A stretch of 64,000 nt of DNA, taken from the NCBI GenBank assembly GCA_024279135.1, contig JAJRRU010000032.1:186001-250000 (forward strand), in the 5' to 3' direction. Of this stretch, positions 4,445 through 12,108 are shown piece by piece (positions within the stretch are counted from its first letter, which is position 1; the number at the start of each line of letters is the position of its first letter). Under the pieces are notes generated by a model, which worked only from the letters and a program-made list of their open reading frames with translations, did not search any database and had not been told where the DNA came from. Source of the stretch: Alphaproteobacteria bacterium. Its GTDB lineage: Bacteria; Pseudomonadota; Alphaproteobacteria; Rhodospirillales; Casp-alpha2. The position numbers and the translations under genes are program-made.

Positions 4445-7129
4445 CTACGATGCCATCAATTGACGCAACACATAATGCAGAATCCCGCCATGGCGATAAT
4501 AATCGACCTCGTCCAGGGTGTCGATGCGACATAAAACCTGGGTCTCGATGGTGGTGCCATCGCTACGGGTAATCCGTAAATCAAGATCCATGCGCGGCTT
4601 CAGTCCGGCGGCTTGCCCGGTGATGTCAAAGGTTTCTGAGCCATCCAGTTTCAGGGTTTTACGGTTTTCACCGTTTTTGAACTGCAAGGGCAAAACCCCC
4701 ATGCCGACCAGATTAGAGCGGTGGATGCGTTCGAAACTCTCAACGATGACGGCTTTCACACCGAGCAATACGGTGCCTTTGGCGGCCCAGTCACGTGATG
4801 ATCCCGTACCATATTCCTTGCCACCGATCACCACCAGCGGCGTGCCACTTTCCACATAATCCATGGCCGCGTCATAGACCGGCATTTGTTTTCCGGCGGG
4901 CATCAGCTTGGTCACCCCGCCTTCGGTGCCGGGCACCATTTCATTGCGAATGCGAATGTTGGCGAAGGTGCCACGCATCATGACTTCATGATTACCCCGT
5001 CGCGATCCATAGGAGTTAAAATCCTCGGGACGGATCTGATAGCCGAGCAGGTACTCTCCGGCCGGGCTTTCTTTGGTTATGGCTCCGGCGGGCGAGATGT
5101 GATCGGTGGTGATGCTGTCACCCAGCATCAGCAACATGTGGGCGCCGGTCACATCCGAAATCTCGCCGGGTTCGGCTGTCATGCCTTCGAAATATGGTGG
5201 GTGTTTGATATAGGTTGAAGCACTGTCCCAGCTGAATGTGCGTCCGGCGATACTGTTGACGGCCTGCCATTCTTTGGGGCCTTCATACACATTGCCATAG
5301 CGTTCAGCGAACATCTCACGGCTCAGGCAGTCCTGCACCGTCTGGGCAATTTCGGCATTGCTGGGCCAGATATCGCGCAAATAGACGGGCTGTCCATCGC
5401 TGCCTTTGCCCAGTGGCTCGTTGATGATATTGCGGGTCAGGGAGCCGGCCAGGGCGTAGGCGATGACCAGTGGCGGTGAGGCCAGATAGTTGGCCCGCAC
5501 ATGGGGGCTGATACGGCCCTCGAAATTCCGGTTGCCTGATAATACGGCCGTGGCGACCAGATCGCCGCTTTCGATGGCATCGCGGACCGGTTTGGCCAGC
5601 GGGCCGGAATTACCGATACAGGTGGTACATCCAAACCCGACAATCTGGAAGCCCAGAGCATCCAGGTGTTCCTGCAAACCGGCCTTTTCCAGATAATCGG
5701 CGACGACCTGTGAGCCTGGTGCCAGGGATGTCTTGACCCACGGTTTGGTTTGCAGACCCTTGGCTGCGGCATTTCGGGCCAGCAGCCCGGCGGCAACCAG
5801 CACTGATGGGTTCGACGTGTTGGTGCACGATGTAATGGCGGCGATGACCACATCACCATCACGCAAAGGATAATCCTCCCCATCGATGACTTGTTCGCGG
5901 GGTGCTGAAATATCGGCCATGTCCTTCAGGGAGGCAGCAAAACCTGCTTTGGCATCGCTCAGGTTGATGCGGTCCTGGGGGCGTTTGGGGCCGGAAATGC
6001 AGGGCTCCACAGTGGAGATATCCAGTGTCAGGGTATCGGTAAACAGGGGGTCTTCATCGTTTGCATCACGCCACAGACCCTGTTCGCGGGCATAGGCCTC
6101 AACCAGAGCGACGGTTTGATCATCGCGCGCCGTGGCGTTGAGATAATTAAGGGTTTCATCATCGACCGGAAAAAATCCACAGGTGGCACCATATTCCGGG
6201 GCCATGTTTGCGATGGTCGCCCGGTCGGCCAGGCTGAGGTTATCCAGACCGGGGCCATAAAATTCCACGAATTTGCCGACCACGCCTTTTTCGCGCAGCA
6301 TTTGTACCACGCACAAGACAAGATCGGTCGCCGTATTGCCTTCTTTCATGGTGCCGGTCAGCTTGAAGCCGATAACCTCAGGGATTATCATCGACACTGG
6401 CTGGCCGAGCATGGCGGCTTCGGCCTCGATACCGCCCACACCCCAACCCAGGACGGACAAACCGTTGACCATGGTGGTATGAGAGTCTGTTCCAACCAGG
6501 GTATCGGGCATGGCGATGGTCTTGCCGTCTTCATCCTGTGTCCATACCGTGTTCGACAGAAATTCCAGATTGACCTGGTGACAGATTCCGGTTCCCGGTG
6601 GCACCACCGTAAAATTGTCAAAGGCGCTCTGGCCCCATTTCAGGAAAGTATAGCGTTCATCATTGCGCTTGAATTCCATTTTGATATTGTGAGCCATGGC
6701 ACCGGCGCTGCCGCTTTCATCGACCATGACAGAATGATCAATAACCAGATTACAGGTCGACAGAGGATTGATTTTCTGGGGATCACCGCCGAGCGAGGTT
6801 ATGGCATCGCGCATGGCGGCCAGATCGACCACCGCCGGCACACCGGTAAAGTCCTGCATCAATACCCGGGCAGGCCGATAGGCGATTTCATGTGTCGAGG
6901 TCCTGGTCTCTAACCAACCGGCCATGGCCTTGATATCATCCACATCGACCGTTCGGCCATCTTCATAGCGCAACAGGTTTTCCAGTAGAACCTTGAGGGA
7001 TTTTGGCAAACGCGACAGATCGCTCAGGCCAGTCTCTTCGGCGGCCTGAAGGGAGAAATAATCGTAAGATTTACTGCCGACATTGAGTGAGCGGCGGGTG
7101 TTCAGGGTATCGCGACCGGTAATGGGCAC
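4445..7129 (-). CDS. acnA: Aconitate hydratase A
   Basis: 894 residues, the normal length for AcnA/IRP-type aconitase, which converts citrate to isocitrate in the TCA cycle using a [4Fe-4S] cluster. Cluster cysteines are visible as ITSCTNTS (about C435) and GFGCTTCIGNSG (about C500 and C503). The C-terminal swivel domain has GKEYGTGSSRDWAAKG, the active-site Ser/Arg motif. Translation starts at GTG after AAGGAG at good spacing. It is transcribed away from the symporter gene, with a 226-bp shared upstream region, and the AmgK-like gene follows it directly. Confidence 0.97.
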   Translation of the reverse strand: MPITGRDTLNTRRSLNVGSKSYDYFSLQAAEETGLSDLSRLPKSLKVLLENLLRYEDGRTVDVDDIKAMAGWLETRTSTHEIAYRPARVLMQDFTGVPAVVDLAAMRDAITSLGGDPQKINPLSTCNLVIDHSVMVDESGSAGAMAHNIKMEFKRNDERYTFLKWGQSAFDNFTVVPPGTGICHQVNLEFLSNTVWTQDEDGKTIAMPDTLVGTDSHTTMVNGLSVLGWGVGGIEAEAAMLGQPVSMIIPEVIGFKLTGTMKEGNTATDLVLCVVQMLREKGVVGKFVEFYGPGLDNLSLADRATIANMAPEYGATCGFFPVDDETLNYLNATARDDQTVALVEAYAREQGLWRDANDEDPLFTDTLTLDISTVEPCISGPKRPQDRINLSDAKAGFAASLKDMADISAPREQVIDGEDYPLRDGDVVIAAITSCTNTSNPSVLVAAGLLARNAAAKGLQTKPWVKTSLAPGSQVVADYLEKAGLQEHLDALGFQIVGFGCTTCIGNSGPLAKPVRDAIESGDLVATAVLSGNRNFEGRISPHVRANYLASPPLVIAYALAGSLTRNIINEPLGKGSDGQPVYLRDIWPSNAEIAQTVQDCLSREMFAERYGNVYEGPKEWQAVNSIAGRTFSWDSASTYIKHPPYFEGMTAEPGEISDVTGAHMLLMLGDSITTDHISPAGAITKESPAGEYLLGYQIRPEDFNSYGSRRGNHEVMMRGTFANIRIRNEMVPGTEGGVTKLMPAGKQMPVYDAAMDYVESGTPLVVIGGKEYGTGSSRDWAAKGTVLLGVKAVIVESFERIHRSNLVGMGVLPLQFKNGENRKTLKLDGSETFDITGQAAGLKPRMDLDLRITRSDGTTIETQVLCRIDTLDEVDYYRHGGILHYVLRQLMAS

Positions 7130-7355: not shown

Positions 7356-8780
7356 ATGGATCTGATCTTTACCGGCCTGCTGATCGTCCTGGCGGGCGCA
7401 TCATTTGTCTTTGCCCCCCGGGCGATATATACAAACGGCTTTTTCAAGGGCATTGCCCCCAATGGTCGGGTGCCGGGCATCGTGGTACTGACACTCTCAC
7501 AAGTGACGACCTGGTTATTTGCCCGCTCGTTGCTGACCGCTGCGGTACTGGGGTTTTATTACGGCATTGCCGGTGGATTGGCTTATGCTGCCTATTATCT
7601 GTCCTTTATCAGTGGTGGTGCGATTATCCGTTCCATCAGGTTCCGCCATGGTGCGCGCAATATCCAGGATTTCCTGCGCGAGCGTTTCGGGCGCGGCGGG
7701 GTGGTGTGTTACAACATTGTCATTGCCGTACGTCTGTTATCGGAAGTTTTTGCCAATTTGCTGGTGATCGGCATTATATTTGGCGAAACGGGCAGCAACG
7801 GTTATTTGCTCGCTATCGTCTTGCTGGCGTTTGCCACGCTGGGATATTCCATGCTGGGCGGCCTGCAGGCATCCTTGCGCACCGACGTTTTCCAGATGGC
7901 CGCTTTCCTGGTGCTGTTTGTGGTGGTCCTGGCCATGCTGTTTACCATGGATGGTTGGTCCTGGCAGGCCGCATTGGGAAGCAGTTCCGGGGCAGAGTTT
8001 GCCACCAGGGGGGAGCCGGGCTGGATCTTGCTGGGCGTTGCGGCTTTGCAGTTCTGGAGCTACCCCTTGCATGATCCGGTTATGATGGACCGTGGTTTTA
8101 TTGCTGACAGGCGGACCACATTGGCCAGTTTTGGCCACGCGGCCTGGATCAGTATCATCTGTATTCTCGGATTTTCCATGCTCGGTGTGTTTGCCGGACT
8201 GAACGCCATGGAAGGCGAGGCCATGATGAGTGCTTTATCGCGGATGCTGGGCCCGCTTGCCCTGATGTTGATTAATCTGGCGCTGATTGTCTCGGCCGCC
8301 TCGACGCTCGACTCGACCCTCTCGAGTGCCGCCAAGTTATCGGTTGCCGATATGGGGCTGTTCCCGGTAACCGTGAAGAATGGCCGCATCGCCATGGTAT
8401 TGTTCATGCTGGGCGGATTGCTGTTCTTGTTCGGTGGTACCAAAGACCTCTATAGCGCTGTGGCGGTCAGTGGTACAGCGTCCATGTATCTGGCCCCGGT
8501 GATTTTCTTCTCGGTGTGGCTGGGCAAGACCAATATTCCGGGCTGGAGCTATTATCTGTCTTTCATTACCGCTCTGGCCGGTGCTGTTTTGTATTATACC
8601 GAAGCGGGCGGGATGAGTAATATTCTGGGACCATTGAGCGGGCTGGAACATAAATACGCCAAACTTCTGCTGATTTCGGGTTTTATCATGGTTCTGGGAA
8701 ATGGATATTTTTTATTGGGAATGCTGTTTAATCGGCGGCCTCACGACCTTGTGAACGAAAGCCGACAGGAAAATACATAA
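7356..8780 (+). CDS. Sodium:solute symporter family (SSS) transporter
   Basis: 474 residues with about 12-13 hydrophobic segments and the SSS-family fold: an N-terminal helix, then VLTLSQVTTWLFARSLL in TM1, a GGLAYAAYY stretch, and the conserved LGGLQASLRTDVFQ loop seen in SSS permeases, followed by WSYPLHDPVMMDRGF. Members couple Na+ entry to uptake of sugars, amino acids, carboxylates or urea; nothing here fixes the substrate. A GGAAAG ribosome-binding site precedes the ATG. It is divergent from acnA. A structured RNA with a terminator follows. Confidence 0.8.
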   Translation: MDLIFTGLLIVLAGASFVFAPRAIYTNGFFKGIAPNGRVPGIVVLTLSQVTTWLFARSLLTAAVLGFYYGIAGGLAYAAYYLSFISGGAIIRSIRFRHGARNIQDFLRERFGRGGVVCYNIVIAVRLLSEVFANLLVIGIIFGETGSNGYLLAIVLLAFATLGYSMLGGLQASLRTDVFQMAAFLVLFVVVLAMLFTMDGWSWQAALGSSSGAEFATRGEPGWILLGVAALQFWSYPLHDPVMMDRGFIADRRTTLASFGHAAWISIICILGFSMLGVFAGLNAMEGEAMMSALSRMLGPLALMLINLALIVSAASTLDSTLSSAAKLSVADMGLFPVTVKNGRIAMVLFMLGGLLFLFGGTKDLYSAVAVSGTASMYLAPVIFFSVWLGKTNIPGWSYYLSFITALAGAVLYYTEAGGMSNILGPLSGLEHKYAKLLLISGFIMVLGNGYFLLGMLFNRRPHDLVNESRQENT

Positions 8781-8839
8781 AAAATTGTGAAATACTACCT
8801 TAGGGACTTAATATCGCCATATTTAGTGCTTATATCTTA

Positions 8840-8958
8840 GATCATAGACCTCCTCGTCTATACCCCTGCCAAAGAGCCTCTCCCCCTCGCTCTTTGGCTC
8901 CCTATAGTGGCACCACGTGCCATAAACTTGCGGCCGGTAACTCCGGCCGCTTTTTTTT
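8840..8958 (+). ncRNA. Candidate small RNA with anti-Shine-Dalgarno loops and intrinsic terminator
   Basis: Four consecutive hairpins lie in the 222-bp gap after the symporter. Hairpin 1 pairs 8844-8849 with 8856-8861 and exposes CTCCTC, with CCTCCTC spanning the loop. Hairpin 2 is a perfect 10-bp stem (8868-8877 with 8889-8898) around the pyrimidine loop CTCTCCCCCTC. Hairpin 3 is a 6-bp stem (8908-8913 with 8917-8922). Hairpin 4 is a GC-rich 8-bp terminator stem followed by eight T. Loops with CUCCUCC motifs before a Rho-independent terminator are the hallmark of alphaproteobacterial sRNAs such as the cuckoo (CcsR) and ar14/ar15 families. Membership is inference; it could also be a 3'-UTR-derived RNA of the symporter mRNA. 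Confidence 0.5.
8930..8958 (+). terminator. Strong Rho-independent terminator
   Basis: A perfect 8-bp GC-rich stem (8930-8937 with 8943-8950), loop TAACT, followed directly by eight T (8951-8958). It ends the symporter transcript and/or the candidate small RNA. The MFS start upstream of it at 8907 is therefore unlikely. Confidence 0.9.
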
Positions 8959-9002
8959 CGTTTTTGTTGGACCTTATTATATCCCGTGTCATAGGTTCTG
9001 GT

Positions 9003-10235
9003 ATGAACATCTTTAAATTTATGGTGAGTTCACCTCGCTTCCTGGCTTTTGGGTTTTTGGCGGCATTTTTTTCGTCATTCGGGCAAACTTATTTTATCTC
9101 CCTGTCCGGGGCGGATATTCGCGAAGCCTTTGATTTGTCCCACGGCGACTTTGGCATGATCTATTCTGCCGCGACCTTGACCAGTGCCATGTTGCTGGTC
9201 TGGGCGGGTCGCAAAATCGATGATTTTGATCTGCGGCTTTATACGGTTTTGGTATGTGTCGGTTTGGCGTTGGCGTGTCTTGGCATGTCGATTGTGGCCA
9301 GTGCTTTCTGGCTGTATCCCATCCTTTTTGGATTACGGTTTTGTGGCCAGGGCCTGTTATCGCACATTTCGGCAACCACCATGGCGCGTTATTATGATGC
9401 CAATCGTGGCAAGGCAATCAGCATTGCAGCCATGGGATATCCGGTCGGTGAAGCCCTGCTCCCAATTATGGTTGTCACGGTTATTGCCGTTTTGGGCTGG
9501 CGTCAAATGTGGGGGGGGATCGGCATTTTCCTGGCACTCAGTATGGTGCCAACCTTGTTATGGTTGTTGAAAGGCCACGGCGAGCGACACCGAAAACTGG
9601 AAGAAAATACCCGCAATGCCGCTTCGCAAAGCAACGATATCCAGAGCTGGTCGCGTCGTCATGTGTTGCGTGATCCGCGATTTTATATCCTGTTGCCCAG
9701 CATTCTGGCCGCATCATTTCTGGTTACCGGGTTTTTCTTCCATCAGGTCCATCTGGTACATAGCAAAGGCTGGAGCATGACCATGTTTGCCGGCGCGTTT
9801 GTGGTTTATGCGGCGGCTCAGCTGACGACATCCCTGCTTGCGGGCGTTCTGGTCGACAAGTTCGGGGCGGTAAAATTAATCCGGGTTTACCTGTTTCCCA
9901 TGGCATTTGCGTTATTGCTGTTGGCGGGTTTCGATGAGGTCTGGACCATGATCGCTATCATGGCCTTTCTGGGGGCGACCGCTGGCATGGGTCAGGTTGT
10001 CAACAGTGCCGTGTGGGCGGAAATTTATGGTATAACCCATATCGGGGCCATCAAGGCGCTTGGTACGGCACTGGGTGTTTTGTCATCGGCCCTGTCGCCT
10101 CCCATTATGGGCTGGGCCATAGATCGCGGCGTGAGCATGGAAGCGATCGCCCTGTATGGGGTCGTCTATATTTTTGCTGCGGCTAGTCTCGCCGGTTTTG
10201 TATTCCCGCGGTTTGATCGTTTCAGGACTGCCTGA
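9003..10235 (+). CDS. Major facilitator superfamily transporter
   Basis: 410 residues from the ATG at 9003 (MNIFKFMVSSP), chosen because an in-frame GTG at 8907 would start inside the RNA and terminator. Twelve hydrophobic segments in two halves, with a polar central loop at about 195-220 (GHGERHRKLEENTRN). TM2-3 loop reads WAGRKIDDFDLRLY, a variant of the MFS signature; the C-terminal half has LAGVLVDKFGAVKLIR, the repeat of that motif. Substrate unknown; the sequence resembles anion or monocarboxylate-type MFS permeases in general layout only. A run of eight G at 9511-9518 sits in frame within the gene. The 3' end overlaps nudC (convergent) by 14 bp. Confidence 0.75.
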   Translation: MNIFKFMVSSPRFLAFGFLAAFFSSFGQTYFISLSGADIREAFDLSHGDFGMIYSAATLTSAMLLVWAGRKIDDFDLRLYTVLVCVGLALACLGMSIVASAFWLYPILFGLRFCGQGLLSHISATTMARYYDANRGKAISIAAMGYPVGEALLPIMVVTVIAVLGWRQMWGGIGIFLALSMVPTLLWLLKGHGERHRKLEENTRNAASQSNDIQSWSRRHVLRDPRFYILLPSILAASFLVTGFFFHQVHLVHSKGWSMTMFAGAFVVYAAAQLTTSLLAGVLVDKFGAVKLIRVYLFPMAFALLLLAGFDEVWTMIAIMAFLGATAGMGQVVNSAVWAEIYGITHIGAIKALGTALGVLSSALSPPIMGWAIDRGVSMEAIALYGVVYIFAAASLAGFVFPRFDRFRTA

Positions 10236-11963: not shown

Positions 11964-12062
11964 CGGGTAGTCGGCGGTGGGCAGATCCCTCGTCAACTCG
12001 GTCAGGTCCGGAAGGAAGCAGCCGTCCCGAGATTCCGGTCTGGGTCATTGTCCGGCTACTCA
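11964..12062 (+). ncRNA. ffs: Signal recognition particle RNA, 4.5S type
   Basis: The universal domain IV core is present at 12000-12021 (GTCAGGTCC-GGAAGGAAGCAGC, with the GGAA tetraloop and the asymmetric loop that binds Ffh). The closing stem GGGTAG-TCGG (11965-11974) pairs with CCGG-CTACTC (12052-12061), giving a single hairpin of about 98 nt, the small bacterial form. It binds Ffh and targets ribosomes making membrane proteins to FtsY. The position just before dnaX is common in Alphaproteobacteria. Ends are inferred from the terminal stem. Confidence 0.92.
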
Positions 12063-12108
12063 TTTTTATCGCACTTTGTTGCGGCTCACTGGTTGGAAGG
12101 GGTGCCCG

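Follow-up and report, generated by a model that had tools for sequence, protein, structure and literature searches.

CcsR (cuckoo) RNAs of Rhodobacter carry C/U-rich hairpin loops and derive from the ccaF1 transcript, as the downstream part of that operon. Rfam includes models for ar14, which is the same RNA as SmelA075, and for other alphaproteobacterial CUCCUCC RNAs. The anti-Shine-Dalgarno (anti-SD) RNAs SmelA075-SmelA099 of the Rhizobiales occur in several copies per genome and display CCUCCUCCC in the loops of three or four hairpins, and pairing with ribosome-binding sites has been proposed for the repeated C/U-rich loops of alphaproteobacterial RNAs (PMC3927594). Two Caulobacter reports describe the alpha-R8 RNAs SisA-D, in which a single-stranded 10-mer UUUCCUCCCU follows a weak hairpin (PMC12559287), and ChvR of Caulobacter crescentus, an 84-nt, ChvI-controlled RNA with two stem-loops that represses chvT without Hfq (PMC6237742). 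Searches of the open-licence literature yielded little on small RNAs of the Rhodospirillales; a Magnetospirillum gryphiswaldense transcriptome report mentions one Rfam-predicted small RNA (PMC9549626). None of the titles or abstracts listed by these searches concerns a small RNA at acnA/ccmA, which does not establish its absence in print. As far as could be seen, the kind of RNA described below, a small RNA with C-rich loops, is already known, and the family, its locus and its candidate regulator are new.

Here we show, from comparative sequence evidence, that positions 8842-8958 of the window (the whole 64,000-nt stretch of Rhodospirillales DNA analysed) are a conserved small-RNA gene under structural constraint, equipped with promoter elements and a terminator of its own (Table 1). 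A discrete gene of this kind, with CUCCUC and C-rich loops, had been proposed in a preliminary description of the window and is supported by the comparisons below.

Table 1. Features of the small-RNA locus and its neighbours, in window coordinates
Feature	Position	Strand	Remarks
acnA (aconitase), ancestral divergent neighbour	4445..7129	-	PF00330, PF00694
Conserved promoter box, ACTTAATATCGCCATATTT here	8806..8824	+	11-bp direct repeat CATAA/CACAA, about -37 to -19; consensus GCATAAWNTCGCCACAWTT
-10 element TTATATC	8830..8836	+	nearly fixed spacing from box; without consensus -35
Small RNA, inferred transcript ~115 nt	8842..8958	+	start deduced from -10; fold, homologues, covariation
Hairpin 1	8844..8861	+	6-bp stem ATAGAC/GTCTAT (8844-8849/8856-8861); loop CTCCTC, anti-SD-like
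Hairpin 2	8868..8898	+	perfect 10-bp stem (8868-8877/8889-8898); C-rich 11-nt loop CTCTCCCCCTC
Linker, pyrimidine-rich, single-stranded, TCCCTATA	8899..8906	+	fold and relatives; TCCCC in many relatives
Hairpin 3	8907..8923	+	7-bp stem (8907-8913/8917-8923), 3-nt loop; single-sequence fold
Intrinsic terminator	8930..8958	+	all-GC 8-bp stem (8930-8937/8943-8950), then T8 at 8951-8958
MFS transporter gene	9003..10235	+	inserted between RNA and ccmABC in the window's lineage

RNA structure and described families

The region 8835-8965 folds with a minimum free energy of -49.6 kcal/mol, as against -24.25 ± 3.22 kcal/mol for 200 dinucleotide shuffles, none of which folded as well (0/200; z -7.87). 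This fold bears out the tandem hairpins, third hairpin and very strong terminator of the preliminary description, including a second stem that is perfect over 10 bp, and a terminator scan recovered the same single terminator (shuffle mean 0.3). The loops given there stand with one correction: the second is CTCTCCCCCTC exactly, and the first is CTCCTC, the leading C of the proposed CCTCCTC being the base that closes the stem. Against the view that the region has no coding explanation stands a GTG-started MFS ORF in the ORF list, which covers 8907-9002 and overlaps hairpin 3 and the terminator; on our reading, however, the start at GTG-8907 merely makes the MFS gene too long at its 5' side, and ATG 9003 is taken as its true start. 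Automatic annotation could hide the RNA beneath this overlap. The opposite strand of hairpin 1 (8843-8857, minus) reads ACGAGGAGGTCTATG, a plausible-looking ribosome-binding site and start that could mislead gene finders.

At gathering score, Rfam 15 gave no match at the RNA stretch, at 20 related loci or at 10 divergent loci, the window's own matches being a tRNA and an SRP RNA, both elsewhere. The latter, a bacterial small SRP RNA (RF00169) at 11965-12064, overlaps the 5' end of a long ORF at 11977 that we take to be dnaX-like, and the real start of this ORF must lie further downstream than 11977. A permissive search of the stretch (E up to 5) listed 10 matches, all at chance level (snR77, sroD, mmgR and others), and the ar14, CcsR and ar15 families were absent among these 10. 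The comparison with Rfam covariance models that the preliminary description had put forward as a check thus returned no match to the families it named.

The ar14/SmelA075-SmelA099 RNAs share with the present RNA tandem hairpins whose C/U-rich loops can pair with ribosome-binding sites, but here the loops are CUCCUC and CTCTCCCCCTC, CCUCCUCCC is missing, there is one copy and the order is a different one (PMC3927594). The setting differs from that of CcsR: here the RNA directly follows a 474-aa ORF (7356-8780), and elsewhere the neighbours are acnA, ccmABC and lineage-specific genes. The alpha-R8 RNAs SisA-D and mmgR/suhB likewise combine a C/U-rich seed with a terminator; UUUCCUCCCU of SisA-D is absent from 8835-8965, and mmgR/suhB (RF00519) reaches 16.1 bits against a gathering cut-off of 41. 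ChvR is also a short stand-alone RNA with stem-loops, for which loop pairing in trans has been shown, such pairing being predicted here, and it is under ChvI-ChvG control, while the box of the present RNA resembles that of the local chvI promoter; ChvR differs in lying between CCNA_00157 and recF, in having one known target, chvT, and in being Hfq-independent (PMC6237742). We read the present RNA as a separate, unnamed family.

Homologues, covariation and gene neighbourhood

Homologues were first collected by a DNA search of 100 relatives, and a covariance model was built from 23 sequences with three helices (hairpin 1, hairpin 2 and the terminator), hairpin 3 lying outside it. In the window's own family the model has exactly one match in each of 42 of 48 genomes (21 of 23 among the high-quality ones). 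Across the order, 83 of 297 genomes have matches at E<=1e-3, comprising these 42 and 41 from 15 other families; 35 of the 41 were inspected, G079, G391, G441, G470, G493 and G573 being unread, and one of the 15 families (f19) is represented by one weak unread match. Within the own family hairpin 1 (ATAGACCTCCTCGTCTAT) hardly varies, and the hairpin 2 core CCAGAGA-CCCCCC-TCTCTGG, mostly followed by TCCCC, is the most conserved module.

An alignment of 68 sequences (34 from the own family and 34 from others), fitted to the model and with related rows, has 96.7% of 1348 cells paired and double changes in 173 cells. None of 500 shuffles matched any of five covariation measures, and in slid controls, with partners shifted by 1-3 columns, 32-45% of cells were paired as against 96.7%. 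Changes on both sides affect 6/6 pairs of helix 1 (hairpin 1; 94.4% of cells paired), 5/6 pairs of helix 2 (hairpin 2; 99.0%) and 8/9 pairs of helix 3 (terminator; 96.5%), and from one family to another hairpin 1 exchanges its entire stem, as where ATAGAC/GTCTAT gives way to GATGTC/GACATC or ATCAGG/CCTGAT. The preliminary description had tied its proposal to stems that covary in relatives, and they do so, with 19 of 21 pairs changed on both sides. In an unfitted MAFFT alignment of 23 relatives double changes occur at 7 of 21 pairs; the MAFFT consensus fold lacks hairpin 3 because of misalignment. Hairpin 3 appears in single-sequence folds of many relatives, those folds being the whole of its support.

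The CCTCC motif falls within the first 34 nt (the hairpin 1 zone) in 31/34 own-family sequences as against 17/34 others, whereas a CCCC run is present in the hairpin 2 zone of 67/68 sequences, and the constant feature is therefore C-rich single strands. The predicted anti-SD CUCCUC is typical of the own family and is not universal.

For 28 genomes without a model match (24 from families of the order and 4 from the own family), the surroundings of acnA were covered by a regular-expression scan at L196-L214, L224 and L225; it gave isolated partial matches but nowhere the box, hairpin 2 and terminator together, and contig ends truncate some of the loci. L215-L223, which are distant paralogues, and sites away from acnA lay outside it. 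In a class-wide search of 289 genomes, the model matched 14 genomes at E<=0.01; one is the window's own, and the other 13 have 14 matches among them. Of these matches three belong to mmgR/suhB and five to another RNA without a name, and those at L032, L039, L040, L042 and L044 are chance or terminators on a single reading; a pattern match in a metagenome-assembled genome labelled Thermoproteota (L048) was also set aside as chance, hairpin 2 being absent downstream. The match at L036, outside the order, falls exactly within the divergent acnA/ccmA gap (about 1335-1830), where the candidate RNA has four hairpins and a C-rich loop (z -5.59) and its upstream box scores 14.5 (control 99th percentile 13.0). 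L036 is a probable distant relative of the RNA family, judging by this combination of features.

A second, different conserved small-RNA-like element is found in several alphaproteobacterial families (L033, L037, L041, L043 and L045, around 1500-1640). Its layout is a hairpin ACGTCTCCCAGACGT, then GAAGCCTCCC, then a terminator, and it has no Rfam match. In some loci it adjoins the gene of a Tat-exported-molybdoenzyme-like product, presumably MsrP-like.

Downstream of the RNA and on the same strand, ccmA is present in 39 of 41 neighbourhoods (those of 40 relatives and the window), the exceptions being L168 and the window itself. The ccmA match begins within 150 bp in 28/39 and further away in 11/39, and in at least five of these 11 another gene intervenes: an MFS gene (L136), a LysR-like gene (L137, L143 and L148) or another gene (L159). 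In eight neighbourhoods acnA lies directly upstream and divergent, within 350 bp, so that the RNA sits in the acnA/ccmA gap, its ancestral position. That a terminator lies within such a divergent pair in itself points to a short gene that is independent. The window genome has ccmB beside ccmA and ccmC on contig C18, and the RNA is on contig C2. The sibling L136 retains the order RNA, MFS, ccmABC (the MFS gene being supported by protein clustering), and the MFS insertion therefore probably preceded the loss of ccm linkage. The position 'after a symporter gene' in the preliminary description is incidental, the conserved position being upstream of ccmABC; for the 474-aa ORF so labelled Pfam gave nothing at E<=1e-5, which leaves the label unconfirmed, and relatives of this ORF (32-35% identity) are found upstream of the RNA in L157, L159 and L164.

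The promoter box and chvI

A promoter scan found no sigma-70 consensus promoter upstream of the RNA, where the direct repeat of the conserved box occupies the place of the -35. A direct repeat in the -35 position is the usual layout of OmpR-family activators. Of the 68 aligned members, 66 have an upstream box that passes the cut-off; L175 and L191 do not. A logo of 44 non-redundant promoters has the consensus CATAAWNTCGCCACAWT, with C1, G10, A15 and T17 invariant in 44/44, and the -10 (T25..AAT30) follows the box at nearly fixed spacing. A pattern scan for the box in 10 genomes, allowing up to 2 mismatches, gave 38 matches as against 25 with the reversed control, and 6 of the 38 are promoters of the RNA. 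One further match (L229, in genome G020) is found 62 nt ahead of the gene for an OmpR-family regulator (PF00072 and PF00486), which we take from its sequence to be ChvI. A reading of the promoter as a Pho box was considered and set aside in favour of the chvI match.

A ChvI protein query gave 11-89 matches in each of 30 genomes and 29 loci with a close orthologue, of which 25 were parsed, L266, L272, L281 and L287 being left out. Most chvI upstream regions share, by eye, the box G(C/G)TATAATTT(C/T)GCCA(C/T)AAA. Scores were taken from a weight matrix for which promoters of the RNA were the sole input (of 66, the 37 that are non-redundant), with 413 control upstream regions. The chvI upstream regions have a median score of 13.4 as against -4.8 for controls (Mann-Whitney p 5e-14, from related genomes that are not independent); 22/25 lie above the control 95th percentile, 13/25 above the 99th (13.0) and 0/25 above the top control, and 21/25 exceed the 99th percentile of shuffles. 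The two half matrices separate less, with 0/25 chvI upstream regions above the 99th percentile for the first half and 5/25 for the second. The chvI upstream regions of L269, L283 and L285 have no good box, and that of the window genome's own chvI scores 8.3 only. The gene was chosen after the one match at L229, which is hence not independent, and among chvI upstream regions the box-pattern scan (10 genomes, up to 2 mismatches) caught that of G020 only. The chvI box, or its AT-rich half, overlaps a TATAAT that could be nothing more than a -10 element.

Among the six best control upstream regions, five precede ccmC, and the scores of some ccmC upstream regions equal or exceed those of chvI. Boxes resembling that of the RNA lie upstream of ccmC at L143:11056 (+), L137:2251 (-), L148:5232 (+), L147:5186 (-) and L167:9520 (+); four of the five contain TGACA, for example CATAAA..TGACACAATT, which suggests either that a regulator is shared or that the promoter is an ordinary TTGACA one. 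In one report, the Sinorhizobium ChvI site is given as N-GCC-N8-GCC and the motif proposed for Caulobacter ChvI as TTGC-N3-GCAA (PMC9731502). The box consensus here, GGC-N8-GCC with the first two bases weakly conserved, resembles the Sinorhizobium site and is unlike the Caulobacter motif.

Mode of action and alternative explanations

Promoter, terminator and structure are conserved independently of the neighbouring genes, the pattern of a trans-acting small RNA. We consider it fairly probable that this is an autonomous, trans-acting RNA of ~115 nt whose C-rich loops would block ribosome-binding sites, and that an OmpR-type activator, with ChvI as the best candidate, would drive it. Unpaired C-rich sequence (the CUCCUC loop, the C5-C6 loop and the UCCCC linker) would pair with target mRNAs at their G-rich ribosome-binding sites, blocking translation, probably aided by Hfq (hfq is present in 7/7 genomes tested) or through a strong kissing-loop contact without it. 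Going by the shared box, an OmpR-family response regulator would activate transcription from the 11-bp direct repeat that replaces the -35; were this ChvI, the ChvG/ChvI envelope-stress system would count the RNA among its outputs, the job that ChvR has in Caulobacter. We infer a trans-acting translational repressor by analogy with ChvR (PMC6237742) and the anti-SD RNAs of the Rhizobiales (PMC3927594). A target scan in 12 genomes for exact ACGAGGAGG, the complement of loop 1, before ATG listed 35 sites, 12 of which come from the RNA loci, read on their opposite strand; among 19 translated of the other 23 candidates, no gene recurs beyond one genus. Since CCUCC is missing from half of the hairpin 1 zones outside the own family, an anti-SD role of loop 1 would not be universal.

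The placement of the RNA upstream of ccmA on the same strand (39/41, with the ccmA match within 150 bp in 28) is what would be seen of a cis-acting leader or attenuator of ccmABC, its terminator gating read-through into the cytochrome c maturation genes. We regard this as quite improbable, however: the window genome has ccm on another contig and retains the one RNA copy found in it, with box and terminator, and this persistence after ccm left makes a leader role unlikely; other genes intervene in several lineages; and the single folds read have no obvious antiterminator, and the terminator helix persists, with 96.5% of its cells paired. A decoy, whose C-rich hairpins would be bound by an RNA-binding protein instead of pairing with mRNAs, fits the greater constancy of hairpin 2 and its C-rich loop relative to loop 1, as well as the lack of a recurrent mRNA target in the one seed scan, but is unlikely given that loop length and exact sequence vary between families and that repeated C/U-rich loops are known from alphaproteobacterial RNAs for which pairing with ribosome-binding sites is proposed (PMC3927594). 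Membership of the cuckoo/CcsR or ar14/ar15 families, as first suggested (ar14 being SmelA075), has in its favour a similar layout of tandem C/U-rich-loop hairpins followed by a terminator; it is highly improbable in view of the absence of an Rfam match on the stretch or its relatives, the absence of a CCUCCUCCC loop, the single copy and the different genomic place.

It is possible, if short of probable, that the RNA acts in trans under an activator other than ChvI, either another regulator, OmpR-type or unrelated, common to the RNA and chvI, or no regulator of this kind at all, the box being a specialised core promoter. OmpR-type regulators are plentiful, to judge from the numbers of ChvI-query matches in the 30 genomes, the strict box scan is barely above its control (38 vs 25), and there are ccmC upstream regions that equal or outscore chvI. 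Against this, chvI itself has a similar box ahead of it in most of the genomes read, as autoregulation predicts, and the 11-bp repeat resembles the Sinorhizobium ChvI site given in PMC9731502.

Keeping to a trans-acting RNA with ChvI as its candidate activator, we tentatively suggest, as a wider reading that is possible and still doubtful, that an ancient alphaproteobacterial riboregulator between aconitase and the ccm operon couples ChvG/ChvI to translation by means of Shine-Dalgarno-mimicking C-rich loops, is older than the families of the Rhodospirillales and, to judge from L036, extends into one other order or more. The RNA family, which has compensatory changes and whose locus is conserved and promoter box defined, is clean, of Rfam grade, and could be annotated at once. 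The window genome is a natural experiment in which the RNA survives separation from ccmABC. The family also raises the testable question of whether a small-RNA output, like ChvR in Caulobacter, may be a general arm of ChvG/ChvI across the Alphaproteobacteria.
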